Assembly: GCA_963576565.1 (NCBI GenBank) | Contig: OY755039.1 | Span: 142,297,369 to 142,361,368, forward strand | DNA length: 64,000 bases | Reading direction: 5' to 3' | Source: Aspidapion aeneum | Lineage: Eukaryota > Arthropoda > Insecta > Coleoptera > Brentidae | Shown here: positions 12,060-62,879 of the stretch, piece by piece | Numbering within the stretch: position 1 is the stretch's first letter | Layout: each line of letters begins with the position of its first letter | The notes under the pieces: model-generated | Seen by the model: only the letters and a program-made list of their open reading frames with translations | Told to the model about the DNA's origin: nothing | Databases searched by the model: none | Position numbers and translations under genes: made by a program

Positions 12060-12765
12060 ACTCAATTAGACTCCGGCAAACAAATGGTGATGTACCAATC
12101 GGCAGTAAGAGTCTTTTAATCTTCGAGAAGAATTGTTGCTATATGACCTACTTTTGAGACAAATGTCTCGACTATATTTTTGGATACATCGCGAGAAAGA
12201 ATTTTTGTTGGCTTCTCTTCATCTTGGAACACCCAAACAGACAACTGACGTTTATTTTCGGGTTTATATAAGTAAATCCAAAATTCATCACTACTGACAA
12301 TGCTGTACACGTTTTTTGAGTTTCCTTCCTCAAGGCGATTTAGAGTTTTCTGGCACCACTTGACCCTAGCTTCTTTCTGTTATTCGGTTAACAGATGCGG
12401 TATCCAGCGGGAAACTAATTTTCTTAACCTTAATTCTTCATGCTAAATTTTCTGAATTGATGTTTTTGAAATCCTCAATGAAACTTTAATCTCGTGATAT
12501 GTCAGATGTCTATCTTCAGTGATAAACATGCGCATAGCATCGATGGTTTCCTGGGTGACAGCCGTTTTTGGTGCACCTAGTCTTGGATCGTCGCTTAGGC
12601 TAATCCGTCCACGCTTGTATTCTCCATACCAACGAGAAACTGTCGACAGATGTGGTTAACATTAACGAAAACAGTAATCAACTCGGAAAAGCATTCTTGC
12701 TGAGATAATTTCCTTCGAATGTTGTAAAAAATTATAGCCCAAACATGTTCTCGGTTTAATTCCAT
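12060..12765 (-). pseudogene. Mariner transposase pseudogene (minus strand)
   Basis: The start codon at 12765 begins MELNREHVWAIIFYNIRR, the N-terminal HTH of a mariner transposase. Stops and frameshifts follow. The middle is readable at 12116-12310, with SSDEFWIYLYKPENKRQ (first catalytic Asp plus Glu, as in the GDE/SDE motif), SVWVFQDEEKPTK and VSKVGHIATILLED. The frame then goes on to TADWYITICLPE near 12060, where similarity is lost, so the C-terminal catalytic Asp pair is missing. It is the same family as the nested copy at 49045-56295, which also begins MELNRE. It is not functional. Confidence 0.85.
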
Positions 12766-12987
12766 TTTTTGACTAATTTTTTACTTTAAAAATTCACTGT
12801 ACCTATGAAACTATATGTTTAAGTAACGAAATTCGATCAATACTGTTACTTATACTAAATTTAATTATTATAAATTTATTTTTTATTACAACTTTTTATT
12901 TTTTAAATAAGTATTTGAAACTTGGTTAGTATTTTCATAAATAAAACTTGTCTTACAAAAATATTGATTCTAAATTACACAACCGCC

Positions 12988-35923: not shown

Positions 35924-38900
35924 TTATGCGTCGGGCATAGGCAAAGGACATAGTTTCACTACTGGTCGACGATATGTTCCTGTAGCTGTTTTAACGGTCA
36001 CAACACGAATATGACCGTCTGAGCCAGGGTGTACGTCGACAATTCGCCCAACAGCCCATTGCAATGGCGGTTTTTGTTCATTCTTTACCACGACTAAAGT
36101 ATTTAGTTTAATATTGTTAGAAGCCTCTGTCCATTTAGAACGCTGTTGCAAGGTGTTTAGGTACTCCAAGTTCCAGCGTTTCCAAAAATCGGACTGGAGC
36201 CTTTGCACCAGCTGCCAGCGGGACAGGGTGTTCAACTTGGAATCAGAAAATTCGGGTTCTGGTACGGAATTCAACGGTTCCAGGGTAAGAAAATAACCAG
36301 GGGTCAGTGGAAGAAAGTCATTCGGATCCATACTTTGGGCATATAGAGGCCGGCTGTTTAGTATGGATTCGACCTGACACAAAAAAGTAAAAAACTCTTC
36401 ATAGGTTAACCGTTGCTCACCTATTACACGTTTTAAATTTGCCTTGGTGGATTTAACTCCTGCCTCAGCTAGTCCGTTTAGGTGCGGACTACCAGGACTT
36501 GAAAAATGCCAGGTAATTTTTAGACTGTGACATGCTTCCTGGGAGCACTGTTTGAGTAAACGATCAGCTCCCAAGAACGCGCTACCACAATCTGAGTAAA
36601 TGTCAGAGATTCTTCCTCTTCTTGCCACAAATCTCTTAAAAGCCGCAAGAAAGGTAGGGGTGGAAATATCGGAGGTAAGTTCTAGGTGAACTGCCTTTGT
36701 TGCAGAGCAGACTAAGACAAGAATATAACCTTTGGATACCTTTGCACCTCGGTACTTTCCCATTGTAATTGGCAAGGGACCACAATAATCTATGGCAACA
36801 TGTGAAAATGCCTTTACTTGAGAGATGCGTTGAGCAGGCAAGTTGCCCATGATTTGTACGGAAGGTTTAGGATTTAATCGATAGCATAAAATGCAATGAG
36901 AAGTTATACTCTCGATTGCATAGCGAGGGGAAAGGATCCAAAATTGTTGTCTCAACGTTTTTTGACCGGGATGACAGTACCTTTTGTGAGTGTACTCAAT
37001 GACAAGTTGAGTAAGACGGTGAGAACGTGGTAAAAGTAAAGGGTGTTTTGCTGAATAAGAGAGTTCGGAAGAATGTGGTAATCGACCCCCCACTCTTAAG
37101 CAGCCTTGTGTATCTAGAAAAAGTGAAAGTTTACGAAATTGTTTAGGAAGTAGCTTTGCGTCATTCAAACGTGAAATGAGATCAGCAAAGATGGAACGTT
37201 GAACATGCCGAACGAGAACAATAAGAGAATGTTGAAGTTCTACTTCGGTAATATTTTCGTTAGGATATTTAGATTTCTTTTCGGTAAGGCGAAAAATATA
37301 GGAAATTATGCGTTGAATTTTCTCTAGGGAAGAGTAACGAGAAAGAAAAGTATCAAGCATGTGTGGTTCAACTGTGCATGTTTGAAATACTGATTTGCGC
37401 TCTTCCAGAATAACCTCGTTTTCCGGAGGGTCTGGACAGCGAAAATCATCAGGCCAGCTCTCTTTTGGTAGCTTAAGAAAACAAGGACCTTCCCAATACA
37501 AGTCATGTTTGACAAGTTGATTAGGCATAAGACCGCGCGAAGCACAGTCGGCTGGATTTAGCGCTGATGGAATATATTTCCAGGCCGTAGGAGAAATGGT
37601 TTCTTGAATGTGACAGATACGGTTTGCCACAAACGTTTTAAACCTGTGAGGTGAAGCCGCCAACCAGCATAGAACCACTTGGGAATCACACCATGCACAG
37701 ATTTGGTTGAAGTTAAGAATATCTGAATAAGTGTTTTGAATAAAGGAAATTAGGTCGCAAAGTAAAGTGGCACCAAGAAGCTCCAGTCGCGGAAGACTGA
37801 CTGTTTTCACTGGTGCGACCTTAGATTTGGCCATTACAAGAAAGGTATGGATTTCTCCGGATACTGACTCCATTCTGAAATAGACCGTAGCCGCGTAACC
37901 TATCATAGAGGCGTCTGAAAAGCCGTGAAGTTCAATGCTACGTGGTTGATCAATGGAAAGGCGTCTAGGTAAATGAATATTTGAAAGATTTGGAAGTTCG
38001 GTTCGAAATTGATTCCAAACATTTACGATATGCGGAGGAGGCTGAGAATCCCAGTCCAGCTTCTCCTTCCACAGATCTTGCATGAGATGCTTAGCAAGTA
38101 AAGAAACGGGAGAACAGAAACCTAAGGGATCAAAAATTTTCATGATTTGAGATAAGATACCTCGCTTGGTGCATGGTTTATCTTCTGGTACGACCAAGTA
38201 GGTAAACGAATCTGAGATAGGATTCCATTGGAGACCTAATATTTTTACAAAATTAGGTTCGGATTTGTCGAAACGAATGGACATTTGTGTTTCTGATTCT
38301 GAGAATGAGGAGAGAAGTTCCGGACTGTTGCTCGCCCATTTTTTAAGTTCAAACCCTCCTAGGCGCAACAGGGAGATTAACTCCGACTGAAGTTCTTTGG
38401 CAGAGGCCACAGAATCCTGCCCAGTGAGCACGTCGTCGACGTAAATGTCTTTAAGAAGCACCTTGGAAGCATTAGGATACCTTTCAGACTCAAGTTTAGC
38501 TAGTTCTTGTATAGTACGAATAGCTAAGTAAGGTGATGACTTAAGTCCATAAACAACTGTTCTTAAGGAGTAGGTTTGGACAGGATCATCCTCAGAAAAT
38601 CTCCATAGAATATTTTGATAACGCGTGTGCTCAGGAATAATTAAAATCTGTCGGAACATTTTTACTATGTCAGTAACAAAGGCTACAGCATGAATTCGAA
38701 AATTAAGTAAAATTTCACGGGCATCATTTTGCAGTTTAGGACCTGCGCACAACGTCTCGTTGAGTGAGACACCTCTGGGACTACGTTGAGACCCATCAAA
38801 GACCACTCTTATCTTCCCAGTGTTCCAGACACTGTGATGAGGGATAAAGTAGGAATTATCCAAGACATCTTTAGATATAGGCGTAGGAATAGGTATCATG

Positions 38901-41272
38901 TGACCAGTGTCTAAATAATCTTGCATAAAATCTTTGTAAGCTTGATAATTAGCTGAGTCTTTGAGAAGTCTAGCTTCCTGAAGCTTGAAACGTTTTAAAG
39001 CGATTGGATAGGTGTCACCCAACTGGGGTTCTAAGTTTATGAAAGGTAATGGAACGACGAATCTACCTGATTCGTTGCGTGAAACTGATTGTGAAAATAA
39101 TTTTTCGCACATAATATCCTCAGGACTGTGATGAACCTTATGTGGAACCTGCTCTATCTCCCAGAAGCGCTCTAGGCAGATATCCAGAGATGGTTCGATG
39201 GAAGTGTAACAGCTTATGAGTGATTGTGGATTTTGTTGCTTTGAAGTTTCAACTTTACCAATCAGCACATAGCCAAAGATGCTATTAAAAGCACTAGGTT
39301 GTCCACGCTCTCCGTGGATAACTCCCTCTTGTAAGAGATGCGGAAAAAGTTCACAACCTACTAGGACATCAATGGAACTTGGTATATGGAAGTTTTGATC
39401 AGAAAGTTTGATATTGCGAATGTGATTCCACTTGCTCGAGTCGACAGCGCAAGAAGGAATCTCTGTACAAAGTTTTGGAAGTACTAAAGCCTCAAAATCA
39501 AAGGTAGGTCCCGCTTGACCTTGAGGTTTGATAAGACATTTCGTCTTACCTTTGGTATTGGAAGATGTCATTTGATTTAAGCCTTGAATAGAAGTAGAAA
39601 AGAAGCTTTTCGAAAGACCTAAACGATTTAGACATTTTTCTGAAATAAAGTTTGCCTCTGAGGCAGAATCGAGTAAGATACGAACTGGTTGGTAATGTCC
39701 CCTTGAGTCTAACATGTCAGCTACAACGGTAGAAAGTAGAAAAGTGGAATTTTTGGAAATCATTGTCGCATGACAGTTTGTGGAATGGCTTCCTGACATA
39801 GGGGTGCTATTGGAATTGGAAAGTGGAATATTAGCGTTCTCTGGAGGGTGTGAATTAACACTCACAGAGGGCGCTACTGGTTGTGGAACGTGAAGAAGAC
39901 TGTGGTGCCTAGCTCCACACGTAAAGCAGTTGTAGGAGGAGGGGCAATTCACGGTCTGGTGAGCAAAATGTAAGCAATTTTGACATAGATTCACCTGCCG
40001 AACATAACCCATCCTTTCCTGTGGACTTTTGTTTTGAAATTCGATACATTTCGATAATGCGTGATTCGAAGAACATAGGTAACATTTTATTTTTGGATTA
40101 AAAGATCTGTTCTGATTATTTTGTATTTGAGGGTTGCTGCGTTGATTGCTATTTTGTAAAGTATTTTGTTGATTTCTTGAATTTGAACTTTGATTTGAAA
40201 TAGTTGTATTGAAAGCAGAAGGTGAATTAAAATTATTAAAACTGTTTCTCTGAAAACTGTTCTGTTGAGAATTACGCGTAGTTTGAGGTTGTCTAGGGGT
40301 TTGATTTTGCCTACTAAAACTGGGCATTTGCACTACAGATTCGAGCGCAACGCAATGATTTTCTATAAACGTGTAAAGATCAGTGTAGGACGGAATTTCT
40401 GAATTGTTTTTCTCTCTACTATAGTAAAGTTCGAAATCAGTCCTCATCTTTACTTCAAGTTTTGAGAGCATCATGTTAAAAGTAAGAAAGTCCCATTCTT
40501 TTGTAGGAAAACCAAGCTCATTTAAGATGGCTAGATTCTCAGAAAATGTATCCAACATGGAACGTAATTCTTTCCCAGAACTGGATTTAGTTGAAAGAAA
40601 GTTAATAGCATTCAAAGCGGTAGTAGCAATAATTCGTTTATTTTGATACCTCTTTACTAAGGTTTCATACGCAATGTGATAATTGCTATCTGCGAGGGGA
40701 ATGGTTTTTACTAGAGAAAGGGCTTCATTCAGAACAGAACTCCGCAATTGTTGAAATTTCTCTATATCACTTAAATCAGAATTTTGATGTACCATGACTT
40801 TAAATAAGTCAAACCAGTGTTGCCAGCTTTTATAATTACCATCGAATATTGGCAACCTTGGTTGTGGAAATGATCTTGTATTTGACCTCTGAACAATATT
40901 TTGTTGGTTAGGGTTGCCTACGTAATTGACAGGGTTGGCCCTAAAAAGGTCGTAGTAAATACCCTTACACTCATAATAAAGGTTGTCAAAGTCTTTTCTA
41001 GTTTTATCCTGCTCGTCAAATGAAAGTTTAAACTCTTCGAGAGAGCCAATAATTTGGTTATGAAAATTATAGAATTGAGCATGACATTCTTCGACGTCTT
41101 CATATCTGGATTTAAACAAAAAGTGAAACGCTGTATCCGACTTCGCTTTCAAAGCTACCTCGTGAGCTTCCGCCATTTGGTTGAAGCTCAAAAGCCTTTT
41201 GTCGCAAAGTTTTTTCTGTTTTGCGTAGACATTTTTGTTTTTGAAAGTTAATTTGTTTTTAAAATTACCCAA
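35924..41272 (-). CDS. BEL/Pao gag-pol polyprotein, 1782 residues, intact
   Basis: Approximate residues, in order. Gag (DUF1759-like) 130-300, with FDGNYKSWQHWFDLFK. Gln/Asn-rich linker 320-390. Zinc knuckles at CYLCSSNHALSKC (397-409) and about 430-460. Aspartic protease (DUF1758-like) 525-650 with active-site LLDSAS, so Asp535 is followed by Ser-Ala rather than Thr-Gly. RT about 790-1010 with Asp868 (FVTDIV) and YVDD (944-947). RNase H 1105-1245 with Asp1120, Glu1164, Asp1196 and Asp1242. Integrase H2C2 zinc region about 1410-1463 ending CILC, then catalytic core Asp1495 (AIDYCG), Asp1561 (YSDCGSAF) and Glu1603 (LAEAGVK). C-terminal DUF5641-like region 1690-1780. All catalytic residues I looked for are present and there is no internal stop. 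The protein packages RNA, reverse-transcribes it and integrates the cDNA. Confidence 0.95.
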   Translation of the reverse strand: MGNFKNKLTFKNKNVYAKQKKLCDKRLLSFNQMAEAHEVALKAKSDTAFHFLFKSRYEDVEECHAQFYNFHNQIIGSLEEFKLSFDEQDKTRKDFDNLYYECKGIYYDLFRANPVNYVGNPNQQNIVQRSNTRSFPQPRLPIFDGNYKSWQHWFDLFKVMVHQNSDLSDIEKFQQLRSSVLNEALSLVKTIPLADSNYHIAYETLVKRYQNKRIIATTALNAINFLSTKSSSGKELRSMLDTFSENLAILNELGFPTKEWDFLTFNMMLSKLEVKMRTDFELYYSREKNNSEIPSYTDLYTFIENHCVALESVVQMPSFSRQNQTPRQPQTTRNSQQNSFQRNSFNNFNSPSAFNTTISNQSSNSRNQQNTLQNSNQRSNPQIQNNQNRSFNPKIKCYLCSSNHALSKCIEFQNKSPQERMGYVRQVNLCQNCLHFAHQTVNCPSSYNCFTCGARHHSLLHVPQPVAPSVSVNSHPPENANIPLSNSNSTPMSGSHSTNCHATMISKNSTFLLSTVVADMLDSRGHYQPVRILLDSASEANFISEKCLNRLGLSKSFFSTSIQGLNQMTSSNTKGKTKCLIKPQGQAGPTFDFEALVLPKLCTEIPSCAVDSSKWNHIRNIKLSDQNFHIPSSIDVLVGCELFPHLLQEGVIHGERGQPSAFNSIFGYVLIGKVETSKQQNPQSLISCYTSIEPSLDICLERFWEIEQVPHKVHHSPEDIMCEKLFSQSVSRNESGRFVVPLPFINLEPQLGDTYPIALKRFKLQEARLLKDSANYQAYKDFMQDYLDTGHMIPIPTPISKDVLDNSYFIPHHSVWNTGKIRVVFDGSQRSPRGVSLNETLCAGPKLQNDAREILLNFRIHAVAFVTDIVKMFRQILIIPEHTRYQNILWRFSEDDPVQTYSLRTVVYGLKSSPYLAIRTIQELAKLESERYPNASKVLLKDIYVDDVLTGQDSVASAKELQSELISLLRLGGFELKKWASNSPELLSSFSESETQMSIRFDKSEPNFVKILGLQWNPISDSFTYLVVPEDKPCTKRGILSQIMKIFDPLGFCSPVSLLAKHLMQDLWKEKLDWDSQPPPHIVNVWNQFRTELPNLSNIHLPRRLSIDQPRSIELHGFSDASMIGYAATVYFRMESVSGEIHTFLVMAKSKVAPVKTVSLPRLELLGATLLCDLISFIQNTYSDILNFNQICAWCDSQVVLCWLAASPHRFKTFVANRICHIQETISPTAWKYIPSALNPADCASRGLMPNQLVKHDLYWEGPCFLKLPKESWPDDFRCPDPPENEVILEERKSVFQTCTVEPHMLDTFLSRYSSLEKIQRIISYIFRLTEKKSKYPNENITEVELQHSLIVLVRHVQRSIFADLISRLNDAKLLPKQFRKLSLFLDTQGCLRVGGRLPHSSELSYSAKHPLLLPRSHRLTQLVIEYTHKRYCHPGQKTLRQQFWILSPRYAIESITSHCILCYRLNPKPSVQIMGNLPAQRISQVKAFSHVAIDYCGPLPITMGKYRGAKVSKGYILVLVCSATKAVHLELTSDISTPTFLAAFKRFVARRGRISDIYSDCGSAFLGADRLLKQCSQEACHSLKITWHFSSPGSPHLNGLAEAGVKSTKANLKRVIGEQRLTYEEFFTFLCQVESILNSRPLYAQSMDPNDFLPLTPGYFLTLEPLNSVPEPEFSDSKLNTLSRWQLVQRLQSDFWKRWNLEYLNTLQQRSKWTEASNNIKLNTLVVVKNEQKPPLQWAVGRIVDVHPGSDGHIRVVTVKTATGTYRRPVVKLCPLPMPDA

Positions 41273-41938
41273 AAAAATGCTTAAAATATAGCTTAAAATA
41301 TAACCCGAATTTTAGCAAAAATTAAACAATTTTATTATTTTAATTTTATTAACTTTTTTCGAAAATTTTGAAATGAAATGTTTGTAAGTTTGTCTGTATG
41401 TTATTATTTGAACATATCCCTTAAAAAAAACTTTTATGTCTCACCAAGGATTGAACCCCGCACCTTTCGATTCCAAGTCGCACACTCTGTGCATACGACT
41501 AGCGGTCCCGTCTGAAAGTTTCTAACGAACCTCGGTATTTGAAGAAACAACGCGCGCAACGTGAGACCTTGGTGACGGCGACACTTGCACCTGCGCGTCA
41601 ACGCGACACCTGTACAATCGACAATTAAAGGAATTTAGATGGAAGAACCGCCTTAAATTTTCAGTTTCGGCGTATTGACGCCACTTTTACTGAAAATGTA
41701 ATGAACAAAGCGATCAACTTTCTTTGATGAACTAGTAAACTATACGAAATATGTGCATTGGCTATAGCTATTTTTGAACGGTAATAAACACTTCGATCAA
41801 CTTTGAAGGAACATATCACCAACGGGTGATACATTTTGAAATTTGAAATAGAAATTTGGAATTTTTGTAGGAAATTGCTGAACCACAGGAGTCTAGGTAG
41901 TTTGGAACACTAATAATCCGGTTCGAAGGACCATTAAA
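41273..41938 (-). other. BEL/Pao 5' leader with candidate primer-binding site
   Basis: Just inside the 5' LTR (minus strand, from 41938) the sequence is TTTAA followed by TGGTCCTTCGAACCGGATTA. The TGG start, five bases from the LTR, fits a tRNA primer-binding site. The primer tRNA was not identified. The leader also holds a tRNA-like segment at 41439-41510. Confidence 0.55.
41439..41510 (-). other. tRNA-like segment in the BEL/Pao leader
   Basis: Read on the minus strand the 72 bases end in GCGGGGTTCAATCCTTGG, resembling a T-arm/B-box (one base short of GGTTCGANTCC). They contain CGACTTGGAATCG, which could form an anticodon stem-loop. The acceptor stem does not pair and no A-box is convincing, so this is not called a tRNA gene. 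Confidence 0.25.
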
Positions 41939-48455: not shown

Positions 48456-49042
48456 TACAATTTTCGCTTTTAATTTCTCAACATATCAGAAATTTGTGGA
48501 GTGAGGACGTTTTTCCTTAAGAATTATTTCAAATTGAAAAATGCTCCACGTAGAAGAGTTGGAATCACAATTTAATAAATATACCGTCGACCATTACCCC
48601 CCCCCCCCCTAGATTTTGGCCTAGGTCGTGTGATTCGTGTGTAGGTATTTACCCGTTAATACTTATTCAAGGCCTTACTTAAAGGAATGCCACAGGGGAC
48701 GGTTCCTCGTCCATCATAATAAATATATGACCGTTATTGAAGCTCCAAAATGAAATCTGGACAGCTTTTAGTATCTAAGCCAAATCACACAATGGAAGAA
48801 AGGAAGAAAGTGAGTAGGTATTTCGCATGCGTAAAGTTCTCCCATCCAAATGGGTCGTATAAGAAAAGGTTATTATATTTGAAATGTAAAACCTATTCTT
48901 AAAGGTGGTACCTAGCGATAGCCTCTGTTAAACCATACAAGAAGGGATTAGGCACGTATCACCAGAATATGTGCGTTCGATACTTTTACTTAAATACATT
49001 AGGAATGCTGTGTCTTGTGTCTTTTATTATTAATTTAGTAAG
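48456..49042. other. No gene recognised
   Basis: This includes a C run near 48600. CTCCCATCCAAATGGGTCGT near 48840 has an inverted counterpart near 56405, outside the mariner on the other side. The meaning is unclear. Confidence 0.4.
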
Positions 49043-49590
49043 TACGAGGGCTATCTTTTATATTTCGCATATATTAACATAGAGGGCGACACTGATGGAA
49101 TTACCCTCAATCTTGACCTTACTTAAATTCAAAACGCCAGTGCGATACATGTACTTTTAGAGCTAGAGTGAATTTTTTAACTTAACAAAATCAGTCGAAA
49201 AATGGAATTAAACCGAGAATAACTTTCGAAGGAAATGATCTCACCAAGAATGCCTTGATTTCTGTTTTCGGTAATGAAGCACCTCATCAGTCGATAGTTT
49301 CTCGTTGGCATGGAGAATTGAAGCGTGGACGGATTAGCCTTAGCGACGGTCCAAGGCCAGGTGCACTAAAAACGGCTGTCATCCAGGAAAATCGATGCTG
49401 TGCGCATGCTCATCACGGAAGATCGACAAGTGACATATCGCGAGATTGAGGCTTCATTGGGGCTTTTAAAAACCTCAATTCAAAAAATTTTGCCTAAAGA
49501 ATCAGTAGTTGGAAAATTAGTTTCCCGCTGGATACCGCAACTGTTAACCGAAGAACAGAAAGAAGCTAGGGTCAATAGGGAACTTGCCCA

Positions 49591-50234
49591 TTAACTGTCA
49601 ACACTTATTAGGTGTCCATTAGATCTTGGACCCCCGTGAGGTTAAGCTTTCAAGCTACCCACGGAAAAATATAAGGGAAACAAAAAACTCCTTTTTGCCC
49701 GATTAGCCATGAAACTTGTTTGATTTTTAAATTCACGGGTATGAAATTTCACGTTTGTTAGTATTATTAGGCTTAAAAATTCCGTTGATTGACGCTCACT
49801 GTCTTGATGACGGGTAAAAATGCAAAATGCGTTGATCCGGCCTGAAAAGACAAAGAGCTGTCGTAGGTCACGGACTATAGTTGTTTTCTTTTATTTGCAT
49901 TCGATCTTTTCATTGATCGATATTGTATAGCAGTGTTTTTCCCTGCTTTTGGTTTTTTGTTTCTCTCGTATCTCGGTAGATGGCGCCTCTTGCTATAGTT
50001 CGCTCACTAATTACATTTAATTAGAGACAAAACCGTCTGAACTTCGCAAGATTTGTCACTTGACCAGCAGTGTTCTGAGGAGTCCCATAAGGACGAAACG
50101 GTTAACTGTCAACACTTATTAGGTGTCCATTAGATCTTGGACCCCCGTGAGGTTAAGCTTTCAAGCTACCCACGGAAAAATATAAGGAAAATAAAATACT
50201 CCTTTTTGCCCGATTAGCCATGAAACTTGTTTGA
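49591..50234 (+). repeat. 511-bp hammerhead-bearing repeat, 1.26 units in tandem (retrozyme/Penelope-LTR-like)
   Basis: Bases 49591-49733 (TTAACTGTCAACACTTATTA start) are repeated at 50102-50234 with few changes, an offset of exactly 511. The interior 49734-50101 is single copy and non-coding. A complete type I hammerhead straddles the unit junction (50069-50116), so self-cleavage of a longer transcript would release 511-nt monomers. Tandem hammerhead units of a few hundred bases are known as animal retrozymes, as the roughly 500-bp pDo500 satellite of cave crickets, and in Penelope-like terminal repeats. It sits exactly at the break in the mariner ORF. Confidence 0.75.
50069..50116 (+). ncRNA. 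Type I hammerhead ribozyme (canonical core)
   Basis: Stem I 5' strand AGTGTT (50069-50074); core CTGAGGA (50075-50081); stem II GTCC/GGAC (50082-50085, 50091-50094) with loop CATAA; GAA (50095-50097); stem III ACGG/CTGT (50098-50101, 50106-50109, one G-U pair) with loop TTAA; cleavage-site C at 50110; stem I 3' strand AACACT (50111-50116). Every core position matches the consensus, including A15.1-U16.1 and a GUC-type cleavage triplet. Cleavage is predicted between 50110 and 50111. Activity is inferred from the fold. Confidence 0.85.
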
Positions 50235-51320
50235 CCATTTTTTTTTATTTTACTAAAATGTGTGTTTCTGTATGAAAACGCATTATACCAAATATCAGCC
50301 CTTAAATCGCAATACTTATTTTACAATAAATAATTAAAGTTGGAATCGCTGACTGGTATATTCAAACACAGCAAAATGTGCGGCAGCCGCTGTGACGTCA
50401 CTCCTTAGAAAAATCCCGGGCCCCTTATGAGTATAACGGCCATTCGGTTCATAATTTCCTTTGAAATGATGTTTCACACTTAATATTTAATTTTTTTATT
50501 TTTTTATATTTTTTTATATTTTTATTTTTTTATTACTTCTTATTTTTTTAAAATAATTTAAAAATAATTTAAACCAATTCTTATTCAGAAAACTAAAAAA
50601 AAAAGTTAAGAGGTAACTAAAAACTAAAAATATAAAAAACAATTAAAAAAAATAAAAAATAAAATATTAAGTGTGACATGTAATTTAAAAAAAAAAAATA
50701 AGCTGATTTCAAAAATCGAATAAAAAAAAGGTCATTCCATAAGAAAAATACAAACCTTATGTAATATCTCAAAAACTAAAAGTGACAGATAAAATTTAAT
50801 TTGACAGTTGAATTGCTCTTAAAAAAGTGCCTCAGGAATCTTTTTACAGTAATAAAAAATATTCATAAATATAAAAGTTACGGGGGTGGGTCGAAAATGC
50901 ACCAAATTAAAAATATATATCTTGAAAGTAGTTTAAGATATCGATGTGCGGTTTTCGGCATTAATGTTTTAACAAAAATCGAGCTCGTAACATGTTGGTT
51001 AGTTTTTTCTATCTCCTCTAGAAATGGGCGTTTCCTATCAAAAGTGTCCAATTTGGACCACTCTGTACCTATGTGGGTAGGTATAAATAAAAATAAATCA
51101 GCACTAGTGTTTATAGAGCTCATTCTAAACAGTGTTTAAATAGGTGGGTACCTACTTAATTAATATACTTATTTTTAATAAGACTTATTAATATGGTTAT
51201 ATATATATATATATATATATAATTATTATATTATAGTACTTAGGTATTTATACTTACTTGCAAGCTTTTACACCACGAACTTCAGCTTGAGAAAAATCCC
51301 CCGAATTTTTAATGTATAAT
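50235..51320. other. Insert DNA of unknown origin, with an AT-rich foldback
   Basis: CACACTTAATATTTAATTTT near 50474 is mirrored by the complement AAAATATTAAGTGTG near 50675. Between them is almost pure A/T. A (TA)n run lies at about 51201. No gene was seen. Confidence 0.4.
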
Positions 51321-52279
51321 AGTGGGTTTACACATGCATGAATTTAGTGGCGCCAGTTCTATTTGCACGCCAGTTAAAGTTTACACTATTGTGCGAAAAT
51401 TAAAAAGACTGGCACGCCAGTTTCATTTTTAAAGTGTACACGATACGCGATATGTCGTCTGAACTCTCGGAAGCCTGCAAAATAGTCGCTAAACTTTTAT
51501 TGAAAAAAAAATAAAAGAGATTCAGAAAAAGGAACAACGAAAAGGCCGTATCTAGGCAATGAATACACGACTCTATAGTTTGTATTCATTGATCTAGGTT
51601 AAAGCATGGATTGCTCGTCAATCTACTGAGTTTCTCTTATTTGAACAACATTTTTTAAAATTCGGTCTGCTACTTTAAACCATGGTACTTTTGGGGTGTG
51701 TACTTCATCTGCACCGTTGCGGAACATGGGCTTTTTTTAATTTTTGTCAATTCCAAAGCATATGTGTTTCTTAAGGATTGTATTTTTGCTTTTACTTCTG
51801 CAACTTCAAAGCCTTCAATATTCATTATTTCACTAATTTTTTGGTAAGCATTATCTCGACTATCTTTGTTTTTATAAGAACTACTGTGTACATCCCATAA
51901 ACAAGGAAAACATTCAACGCCTTCAAGAGACTGTATGGTCAGTTCTGCTGACCACTTATTTTTAGCCATAATAAGCTATAAAAACAACAATAAACAAAAT
52001 TTTGAAGCTCAAACACAATGAAAATAAATAATAATGTAAAATAATGAACTTAAAACTGGCGAGCCGACGTGCAAGCACCTGTTTACACATAAAAATTTTC
52101 TTTTTCTGCGCGCATGCGTCACCACTGGCGCCAGCAAATTCAGTCAGCTGCAGACTTTTTTGATACATGCATGCAAAAAAATAACTTGTGTGCAAGTCGG
52201 TGTTTACATTTGCAAATTTAACTTACTGGCGCGCCAGTTTTTATTGGCGCCAGCAAATCCATGCATGTGCAAACTCTCC
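51321..52279 (-). mobile_element. Small DNA transposon carrying a MADF/Myb-like ORF
   Basis: The ends match over about 19 bases: GTGGGTTTACACATGCATG (left) and GAGAGTTTGCACATGCATG (right, read inward). GGCGCCAG and GGCGCGCCAG motifs recur on both sides within 200 bp of the ends. TTAATG occurs just outside both ends, but spacing to the termini differs, so the target duplication is unresolved. PIF/Harbinger elements carry a Myb/SANT-like companion protein, which makes that class plausible. This is inference. Confidence 0.5.
51670..51969 (-). CDS. MADF/Myb-SANT-like DNA-binding protein, frameshifted near its C-terminus
   Basis: The 99-residue frame starts MAKNKWSAELTIQSLEGVE and continues CLWDVHSSSYKNKDSRDNAY, ISEIMNIEGFEVAEVKAKI and LRNTYALELTKI. 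This is the Trp-plus-three-helix pattern of MADF domains over about residues 5-85. MADF proteins bind DNA as transcription or transposition cofactors. Near residue 87 the frame shifts. The alternative frame gives ADEVHTPKVPWFKVADRIL and then VVQIRETQ, the expected continuation, and stops near 51630. It is therefore probably a recent pseudogene. It lies inside an inverted-repeat element on the minus strand. Confidence 0.65.
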   Translation of the reverse strand: MAKNKWSAELTIQSLEGVECFPCLWDVHSSSYKNKDSRDNAYQKISEIMNIEGFEVAEVKAKIQSLRNTYALELTKIKKSPCSATVQMKYTPQKYHGLK

Positions 52280-52483
52280 TTAATGCAGGTCGCATGGATC
52301 GAGATCCAAAGACGTGACGTCACAACCAATGGCAGCGCGTTTTAAGAACGGGTCAAGTTATTCAAATTTCAAACCTTTATTTCTCAGGTAATTTAATTGT
52401 TATTGGAATTTTGCTTTTCCTGGGAACTTTCTTATGATAATACCTTACGATTTTAATTGTTTTTAATGGATTCGATTTTTTGG
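52280..52483. other. Spacer; ends in an inverted copy of mariner sequence
   Basis: GGGCAAGTTCCCTA (about 52483-52496) is the reverse complement of the mariner sequence TAGGGAACTTGCCC at the other side of the insert (about 49577-49590). It lies directly before resumed mariner sequence. Confidence 0.5.
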
Positions 52484-60012: not shown

Positions 60013-60136
60013 ACAGTGGCGTATATACAAAAAAATTTCGGGGGGGGAGGCCGAGACAGTTTCGGGGGGGGGGGGGGGGGTCGAGACCTCATGAGGCCGT
60101 ATTTTATGCTATTTTATGTTTGTATTCATGAAATAT
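60013..60136. mobile_element. hAT-like terminus with G runs
   Basis: CAGTGGCGTATATAC is followed by two TTTCGGGGGGG blocks. The partner end may be the inward-reading CAGGGGCGTTCC near 61936, which would place the satellite array inside the element, but the flanks (CCATACTA and CTCACGCA) do not match. Confidence 0.35.
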
Positions 60137-61605
60137 TGTGGCGTCATACAGATACGAAAAAACACTGATTGAGTTGAGATTCCAAAAAACGTCATTTAGC
60201 GATTTTTAGTATAGGGAAACCAATAAGATCAAAATGGCAAAACTGAAAATTCATATTTTACAAACTATACAGTTTATCAAAAAAAGCACCGAGTTGCAGT
60301 ATTGTGGCCTCATACAGATACGAAAAAACCACTGAGTGAGTTGAGATTCCAAAAAATGTCATTTAGAGATTTTTAGTATAGTGAACCCCATAAGACCAAA
60401 ATGGCAAAATTTTGAAAATTCATATTTTACAAACTATACAGTTTATCAAAAAAAGCACAGAGTTGCAGTATTGTGGCGTCATACAGATACGAAAAAACCA
60501 TTGATTGAGTTGAGATTCCAAAAAACGTCATTTAGCGATTTTTAGTATAGGGAAACCAATAAGATCAAAATGGCAAAACTTTGAAAATTCATATTTTACA
60601 AACTATACAGTTTATCAAAAAAAGCACTGAGTTGCAGTATTGTTGCGTCATACAGGTACGAAAAAACCACTGATTGAGTTGAGATTCCAAAAAACATCAT
60701 TTAGCGATTTTTAGTATAAGGAAACCCATAACACAAAAATGGCAAAACTTTGAAAATTCATATTTTACAAACTATACAGTTAATCAAAAAAAGCACCGAG
60801 TTGCAGTATTGTTGCGTCATACAGATACGAAAAAACCACTGAGTGAGTTGAGATTCCAAAAAAATTCAATTTGGCGATTTTTAGTATAAGGAAACCCATA
60901 ACACAAAAATGGCAAAACTTTGAAAATTCATATTTTACAAACTATACAGTTTATCAAAAAAAGCACCGAGTTGCAGTATTGTGGCGTCATACAGATACGA
61001 AAAAACCACTGAGGGAGTTGAGATTCCAAAAAACGTCATTTAGCGATTTTTAGTATAGGCATAAACTAATTTATATTATTAGTTTATGGTATAGGGAAAC
61101 CCATAAGACAAAAATGGCAAAACTTTGAAAATTTATATTTTACAAACTATACAGTTTATTAAAAAAAGCACCGAGTTGCAGTATTGTGGCGTCATACAGA
61201 TACGAAAAAACCACTGAGTGAGTTGAGATTCCAAAAAACACCATTTAGCGATTTTTAGTATAGGGAAACCCATAAGACCAAAATGGCAAAACTTTGAAAA
61301 TTTATATTTTACAAACTATACAGTTTATTAAAAAAAGCACCGAGTTGCAGTATTGTAGCGTCATACAGATACGAAAAAACCACTGAGGGAGTTGAGATTC
61401 CAAAAAACGTCATTTAGCGATTTTTAGTATAGGGAAACCCATAAGACCAAAATGGCAAAACTTTGAAAATTTATATTTTACAAACTATACAGTTTATCAA
61501 AAAAAGCACCGAGTTGCAGTATTGTGGCGTCATACAGATACGAAAAAACCACTGAGGGAGTTGAGATTCCAAAAAACGTCATTTAGCGATTGTTAGTATA
61601 GGGAA
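60137..61605. repeat. Satellite-like tandem array, 9 units of about 169 bp
   Basis: ACAGATACGAAAAAAC recurs at about 60153, 60319, 60488, 60657, 60826, 60996, 61201, 61370 and 61539, so spacing is 166-170 except one 205-base step. Each unit has GAGTTGAGATTCCAAAAAAC, AGCGATTTTTAGTATAGGGA and TACAAACTATACAGTTTATC. Units are very similar. The long step contains a 36-bp hairpin insertion (61058-61094). Confidence 0.9.
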
Positions 61606-62879
61606 AATATATATAACCATCTTAGAAAACCTCTTAATTTTTTTGTTTGCAAAATATTGTGAATATTTAGCACCCGAAGAGCTCTACTCTCACCTAGTTT
61701 TGTTAAACTGACATTATTTTTGCAAAAATAAAAAGTTAAAAACAAAAAATACGGTTTTTTTCATTTTTCTAGAACATTTTGAGGTTATGTAAAAAATTAC
61801 ATTAACAAAAGTTCTAGATATTTTTATGACCTATGACTGTTATGTATGTCACTTTTTCTACGAAGTCAACTTTTACCGGAAATCGCAAAAATACGATTCC
61901 GTGCCCCTTTTTACCCCCTAAACCCGGAACGCCCCTGCTCACGCATTTATTTTTTTTAACTTTGTTTTTCGCCGTTCTACAATTTTTAATGCTTCAGGTC
62001 CTGTTAATAATTTTTTTCTCTCAAAGTGCAATTTGACTGGCCTAAAATGACAATCTCCTTGAAGTATGAAGTTCACAAAATACTAAATACCGGGTGACCA
62101 CCGATAATTAGAACTAAAGAGAGAAAGGTTACACTACTTGTATGTTCTCACTCTAAAAAAACTGTTAAAATTTTTGCCTCAGTGTCCCGTATACGTAATG
62201 TATAGCCGTGGCCGTTCCAGTTACTTCTTATATAATTCATTGTAACTAGTGTGAGCTTAGGGGCCCATATATTGGCAGAGTATTTTTTTTCTAATCTTCA
62301 TCGACCCACAAAATAAATCTTATTCATTAGACTTTTTGCACTTTAAAACTTTGCATTTTTAGCCATCAAAATCAAGCGGTGGAATAGAGGGTAAAAAAGA
62401 TCTGTTATTATTTTTCTTTAAGAGAAACTTTCTTTTCTAATATTCACCTTTTCTTCCTGTTTAATTGAGTTTGGCACACATTAATTTCGCTCACATTCAA
62501 GCATTGTTGTGTGGCGGTTTTCGACTTAATTGTTCCTCACAAGGGATGTAAATGAAGTGTGAAAGATATGTATGCAAACGAGCCTATTAGGAGCAAGGTC
62601 TTCATAGTTAGGCCTCGTCAAAAAATAAAATATAAGATTTAAATGGTTGCTACTACTAGACTACAATAGATTTTACGATGGCATATGATTTAAATTATTC
62701 TTACAAATGTATTCTTCTAGTTCAAACATTAAAATCCCCGAAGAGTGGAAAAACGTGAAAATTGTTAAAAAAAAATTGCCAACCAAATTCTTGCCAATTA
62801 CTTAAGAGGCTTATAGTCAAAAATCATGTCCAACCTTTTTTACAGTTTTTGTGTAAAACTAAGTTAGCAAAAGTTATTA
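61606..62879. other. No gene recognised
   Basis: AT-rich. GTGTGAGCTTAGGGGCCCAT near 62250 is an inverted copy of the DNA at 32640-32668. The frame at 61833-62036 lacks a domain. Confidence 0.4.

Follow-up and report, generated by a model that had tools for sequence, protein, structure and literature searches.

A type I hammerhead motif in a partially duplicated 511-bp repeat of the beetle Aspidapion aeneum: a probable integrated copy of a retrozyme-like element

A hammerhead-like sequence at the junction between two copies of an insect repeat raises the question of whether it is a real ribozyme motif, and of which kind of element has left it there. The sequence lies in a 64,000-nt stretch of the genome of Aspidapion aeneum (contig OY755039.1, positions 142,297,369 to 142,361,368), which we call the window and to which all coordinates below refer. 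Our analysis suggests, with a probability of roughly two in three, that positions 49591-50234 represent a single integrated copy of a retroelement that is non-coding and non-autonomous and of the same type as the retrozymes of animals, a judgment drawn from this one locus.

The motif comprises 48 bases on the plus strand, 50069-50116, and every core base is present. Its core heptamer CTGAGGA (50075-50081) has a G at position 7, which is the sole core position that is free to vary (PMC2837043, in part). Stem I is formed by AGTGTT and AACACT (6 bp), stem II by GTCC and GGAC (4 bp, closed by the loop CATAA), and stem III by ACGG and CTGT (4 bp with a single G-U pair, closed by the loop TTAA). On the 3' side of stem II follow GAA and then A15.1, and C17 is position 50110, so that cleavage is predicted to occur between 50110 and 50111. 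All the core features of a type I hammerhead (CUGANGA, GAA, A15.1-U16.1, H17) are found in this stretch, together with the type I layout of three helices, of which helix I is open and helices II and III are closed by loops. A previous sequence-only reading had placed a canonical type I hammerhead at these positions, with stems of 6, 4 and 4 bp, one G-U pair and a cut in front of 50111; the position and the stems are borne out by our reading of the sequence and by the Rfam alignment, the type is supported by the same two lines, and the cut site agrees with the placement of C17. Judged by its sequence, the motif is a real hammerhead, a predicted ribozyme, and the locus can be assigned to the type I architecture, which is an assignment of architecture and not of Rfam membership.

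The Rfam model Hammerhead_1 (RF00163) aligns to the motif over its full length (model positions 1-45 of 45) with 24.7 bits, corresponding to an E-value of 0.0016 in a stretch of 801 nt and of 0.13 when the whole window is compared with all 4227 Rfam families. This is the lowest E-value among the eight matches listed in the window, and the next two, at 0.35 and 0.37, are presumably chance. No Rfam family scores at or above its gathering score in the window; for Hammerhead_1, this score is 34, against the 24.7 bits of the motif. It had been proposed beforehand that the lack of a covariance-model hit above threshold would refute the ribozyme, and, taken literally at the gathering score, this is the outcome. 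We do not consider the low score decisive, because all core bases and the three stems are present, and because an E-value of 0.13 over 4227 families amounts by arithmetic to about 3e-5 for a single family that was predicted beforehand; the gathering score is a curation cut-off and not a property of the molecule. Furthermore, the two pairing strands of stem II are identical to the Hammerhead_1 consensus. A strict descriptor, whose limits were chosen after the motif had been seen (the core, at least 5, 4 and 3 bp in stems I, II and III, at most one G-U pair in each, and loops of 3-15 nt), detects one locus in the window, 50069-50116, and no second hammerhead. The same descriptor had no match on either strand of 240 Mb of order-1 Markov random sequence, which by arithmetic gives a chance expectation below about 8e-4 per window (95% bound). 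A loose pattern of the core only is uninformative, because about one match per window (0.87) is already expected by chance.

Energy calculations do not single out the hammerhead fold. For the 48-mer, the predicted minimum is another structure (-9.1 versus -8.5 kcal/mol for the native fold, a gap of 0.6), and in an 85-mer around the motif the native hammerhead lies 3.8 kcal/mol above the predicted minimum. Constrained folding yielded a possible outer part of stem I, with a 5' strand at 50057-50063 and a 3' strand at 50119-50125 on the plus strand, which would add 7 bp (2 of them G-U), separated from the inner stem by an internal loop of 5 and 2 nt, and is compatible with the native fold. This extension is weak, as 680 of 20,000 random flank pairs equal it; its internal loop might make the tertiary contact with loop II that marks type I hammerheads. 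The foldedness of the whole unit (z-score -3.99 as a linear and -3.7 as a circular molecule) was dropped as evidence, since 11 of 86 control stretches tiled over the window, folded as linear molecules with 20 shuffles each, also reach -3.99.

The motif is embedded in a direct repeat of 133 bp (49591-49723 and 50102-50234) with a spacing of 511 bp. The element 49591-50234 therefore consists of 1.26 units on the plus strand, namely one full 511-bp unit as left copy (49591-50101) and a partial second copy of 133 bp (50102-50234), which is 97.7% identical to the first. The left copy has the initial base of loop III as its own first base; it retains the 3' portion of the motif and lacks the 5' strand of stem I, the CUGANGA core and stem II. 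Upstream of this junction, the sequence matches that of the right copy at 15 of 51 positions, the likeness ending at loop III, and the locus contains one complete hammerhead. Self-comparison of the window detected no third copy of the unit, and its seven other matches are short (15-29 bp); a separate search for tandem repeats had a longest period of 500 and is uninformative on a 511-bp unit. The 133-bp copies differ at three sites, which all lie inside the same 10 bp (49677-49686 and 50188-50197), an odd clustering if the inserted copies had decayed at random. The tandemly repeated 511-bp unit of the sequence-only reading thus stands as to its spacing and as to the position of the motif at the junction, but not as an array, since the second copy is a partial one of 133 bp. 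The further idea that a multimeric transcript is cut into unit-length RNA finds no support at this locus, where the left copy lacks the 5' half of the hammerhead, and we reject a long tandem array that yields such RNA here, as there are two copies, one of them partial, and one complete ribozyme. Because of this single complete hammerhead, a transcript through the locus should be cut once, and no 511-nt monomer should be released; a unit-length product would have to come from a different copy that is more complete. The unit has a GC content of 39% and no long frame: even when it is read as a circle, stop-to-stop stretches do not exceed 43 codons on the plus strand and 82 on the minus strand, and a list of frames of at least 120 codons has none there. 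A tRNA-like part was not found in 49000-50800.

The outer junctions of the element are distinct, and their comparison revealed CCATT on both sides, at 49588-49592 and 50235-50239 (plus strand), where the left pentamer shares 2 bp with the start of the repeat and the right one begins a T-rich stretch. This is a possible target-site duplication, which with its 5 bp may also be chance. The insertion target adjoins ATT and the T-rich stretch, and the right end of the element lies 124 nt downstream of the predicted cut. The left flank (49147-49575), which we take to be a mariner-like fragment, is 79% identical to 12360-12818 on the minus strand. We considered and rejected that the element had inserted within a mariner, as the alignment of the joined flanks with the window's other mariner copy did not continue past the junction; the element adjoins the mariner-like fragment, and adjacency is all that we claim.

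With metazoan (non-LTR) retrozymes, which have been reported in insects among other phyla, the locus shares the type I hammerhead with a short stem III, the non-coding nature, the low GC content and the tandem or partially tandem arrangement (PMC7229834, in part). The GC content is below the 50% that marks retrozymes, and no long frame is present. A target-site duplication, which in retrozymes is longer than 4 bp where there is one, would here be the uncertain CCATT of 5 bp, partly inside the repeat. The unit of 511 bp lies outside the range of about 150-450 bp that is typical of metazoan repeats, and the same source gives 150 to more than 1000 nt for retrozyme circles (PMC7229834, in part). 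Retrozymes are further recognized as dimers or longer forms with a hammerhead in each unit, whereas 1.26 units with one complete ribozyme are found here, which speaks against the completeness of this copy but not against the family. According to the published model for animals, oligomeric transcripts cut themselves, host ligases circularize the units, and a foreign reverse transcriptase makes tandem cDNA from the circle (PMC7229834). For the family to which our locus would belong, we infer RNA processing, circularization and mobilization along the same lines: each 511-nt unit would carry one type I hammerhead, oligomeric transcripts would be cut after C17 into units, a host RNA ligase would close these into circles, and the RNA would be copied into new sites by a reverse transcriptase that another element, perhaps a Penelope-like one, supplies. 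The copy of 1.26 units may stem from a circle that was copied for more than one round, or from a multimer that had not been cut; its length and its ends away from the ribozyme cut fit both, and our data do not choose between them. Isolated hammerheads, as in mammals, are not expected to form circles (PMC7229834, in part), which agrees with our reading of the locus. In sum, the complete core with its three stems, the 133-bp repeat at a spacing of 511, the distinct outer junctions, the absence of a long frame, the low GC content, the 4-bp stem III, the position of the 3' end relative to the cut and the target next to ATT and a T-rich stretch argue for a retrozyme-type copy; the single locus, the uncertain 5-bp duplication, the 511-bp unit, the non-minimum fold and the Rfam score below gathering argue against it.

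Among the alternatives, a pseudo-LTR region of a Penelope-like element survives best, and we consider it unlikely. The locus would then be what is left, truncated or solo, of an autonomous element that carries a hammerhead close to its start, and no separate non-coding element. Penelope-like elements form partial tandems, carry hammerheads in their pseudo-LTRs and use AT-rich insertion sites (PMC11167929), and partial tandems are also described in the consulted part of PMC3846280. The locus resembles them in its partial tandem, in its AT-rich target and in the position of its hammerhead, which precedes the 3' end of the insert by about 100 nt (PMC11167929; PMC3846280, in part), the distance of 124 nt being of the same order as in Penelope. 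In the Penelope of Anolis, reverse transcription has an internal start on the RNA, at 111-118 bp of the ORF, and the hammerhead cut is located 26 bp into the ORF, so that the start lies about 85-92 nt downstream of the cut; the target is cleaved at ATT in AT-rich DNA (PMC11167929). The likeness of the 3' ends is suggestive only, as it concerns one locus and compares distances and not sequences. The Anolis data also speak against the retrozyme reading, because hammerhead cleavage, which itself needed the protein, was not necessary for insertion in vitro (PMC11167929), and a ribozyme in such an element therefore need not shape the insert. What argues against a Penelope remnant is the motif itself: Penelope hammerheads are minimal and usually lack stem III, whereas stem III of the locus has 4 bp and brings it nearer to the classical invertebrate motifs (PMC7761336 and PMC6155905, both in part). 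Moreover, and unlike in Penelope-like elements, no reverse transcriptase or endonuclease frame is present; the whole 511-bp unit lies between the copies, and, with the short frames given above, it contains no frame for a reverse transcriptase with GIY-YIG endonuclease as would be expected between pseudo-LTRs. Beyond the unit, the check for Penelope proteins covered 8 of the 20 window frames of at least 120 codons. We had also considered that the G at position 7 abolishes a Penelope-type start codon and dropped this argument; C3 and G8 precede that start codon (PMC11167929). Returning to the retrozyme reading, Penelope-like elements are the proposed candidates for moving animal retrozymes (PMC7229834, in part). 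More specifically, the locus could represent a separate insect retrozyme family with an unusually long unit of 511 nt, whose insertions end at a fixed point about 124 nt past the cut owing to an internal start by a Penelope-type reverse transcriptase. We offer this as a speculative and rather unlikely extension; if true, the fixed 124-nt end would directly record in the sequence the mobilization of retrozymes by Penelope proteins.

It is rather improbable that the element is a stray piece of a hammerhead satellite array like pDo500, displaced by recombination or through extrachromosomal circular DNA without reverse transcription, as the locus has 1.26 units next to a mariner-like fragment, and the rest of the window contains no other copy. 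By size, pDo500 from Dolichopoda cave crickets is the nearest precedent: it is an insect repeat with a unit of 463-505 bp, close to our 511 bp, and with a hammerhead of 49 versus 48 bp that also has a G-U pair in stem III and is often outcompeted by a structure of lower predicted energy, 113 of 146 potentially active sequences not being minimum-energy hammerheads (PMC2837043, in part). This likeness is one of description and not of sequence, and pDo500 is abundant, making up about 5% of the genome in D. schiavazzii, versus the 1.26 units of our locus (PMC2837043, in part). A chance resemblance of unrelated repeat DNA to a hammerhead, for which the score below gathering, the frequent loose core pattern and the non-minimum fold might be adduced, is very improbable in view of the empty random sequence under the strict descriptor, the full-length model alignment with its consensus stem II, and the position in a dimer-like non-coding repeat, a known context for such motifs.

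The repeat had been called previously unassigned, which may hold for the sequence, as no match was found in collections poor in insect DNA, but not for the kind of element, which is known in insects. Neither the exact hammerhead pattern in viral contigs, nor the exact unit pattern in a collection of genome contigs, nor a distant blastn search for relatives in phages gave a match, and these misses say little because all three collections contain little or no insect DNA. We found no published description of the repeat at 49591-50234 among the papers listed by a literature search by words, not sequences. Published reports describe hammerheads in repeats of animals, among them insects (PMC2837043, PMC3088659 and PMC7229834, each in part), and mosquitoes are among the reported hosts (PMC3088659, in part). 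Taken as a retrozyme-type copy, the locus is a fresh example of a kind of element known from many animals, with a longish unit; on its own, it is one more hammerhead-bearing repeat. If many copies of the family shared the 3' end, and if an autonomous Penelope-like element of the same genome ended at the matching point, this would be a direct test of the mover.

The window contains several other features. A loose hammerhead-like match on the minus strand has its core at 49290, inside the presumed mariner-like fragment, with 4 bp in stem II, 2 bp in stem III and a loop III of 14 nt. Descriptors of such looseness gave 57 rows in 240 Mb of random sequence on both strands, or about 0.015 per window, and cmscan did not list the match at E-values up to 10; we set it aside as a second hammerhead, and it is probably chance. 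A neighboring RNase H frame resembled insect retrotransposon proteins in a protein search, the best named among 120 of 182 matches being those of Exocentrus adspersus and Molorchus minor (46-53% identity), which we take to be longhorn beetles; this is in line with an insect host. An uninterrupted frame of 1795 codons on the minus strand (35924-41311) presumably encodes a Pao/BEL-type retrotransposon polyprotein. Close to the element, a long AT-rich palindrome occupies 50460-50690 (74% self-complementary over 236 aligned bases), and at about 51320-52285 inverted similar ends (ACATGCATG...GGCGCCA) resemble those of a DNA transposon with terminal inverted repeats. Farther downstream, 60134-61606 is a tandem array of a 169-bp unit with about 8.5 copies and 86% matches.
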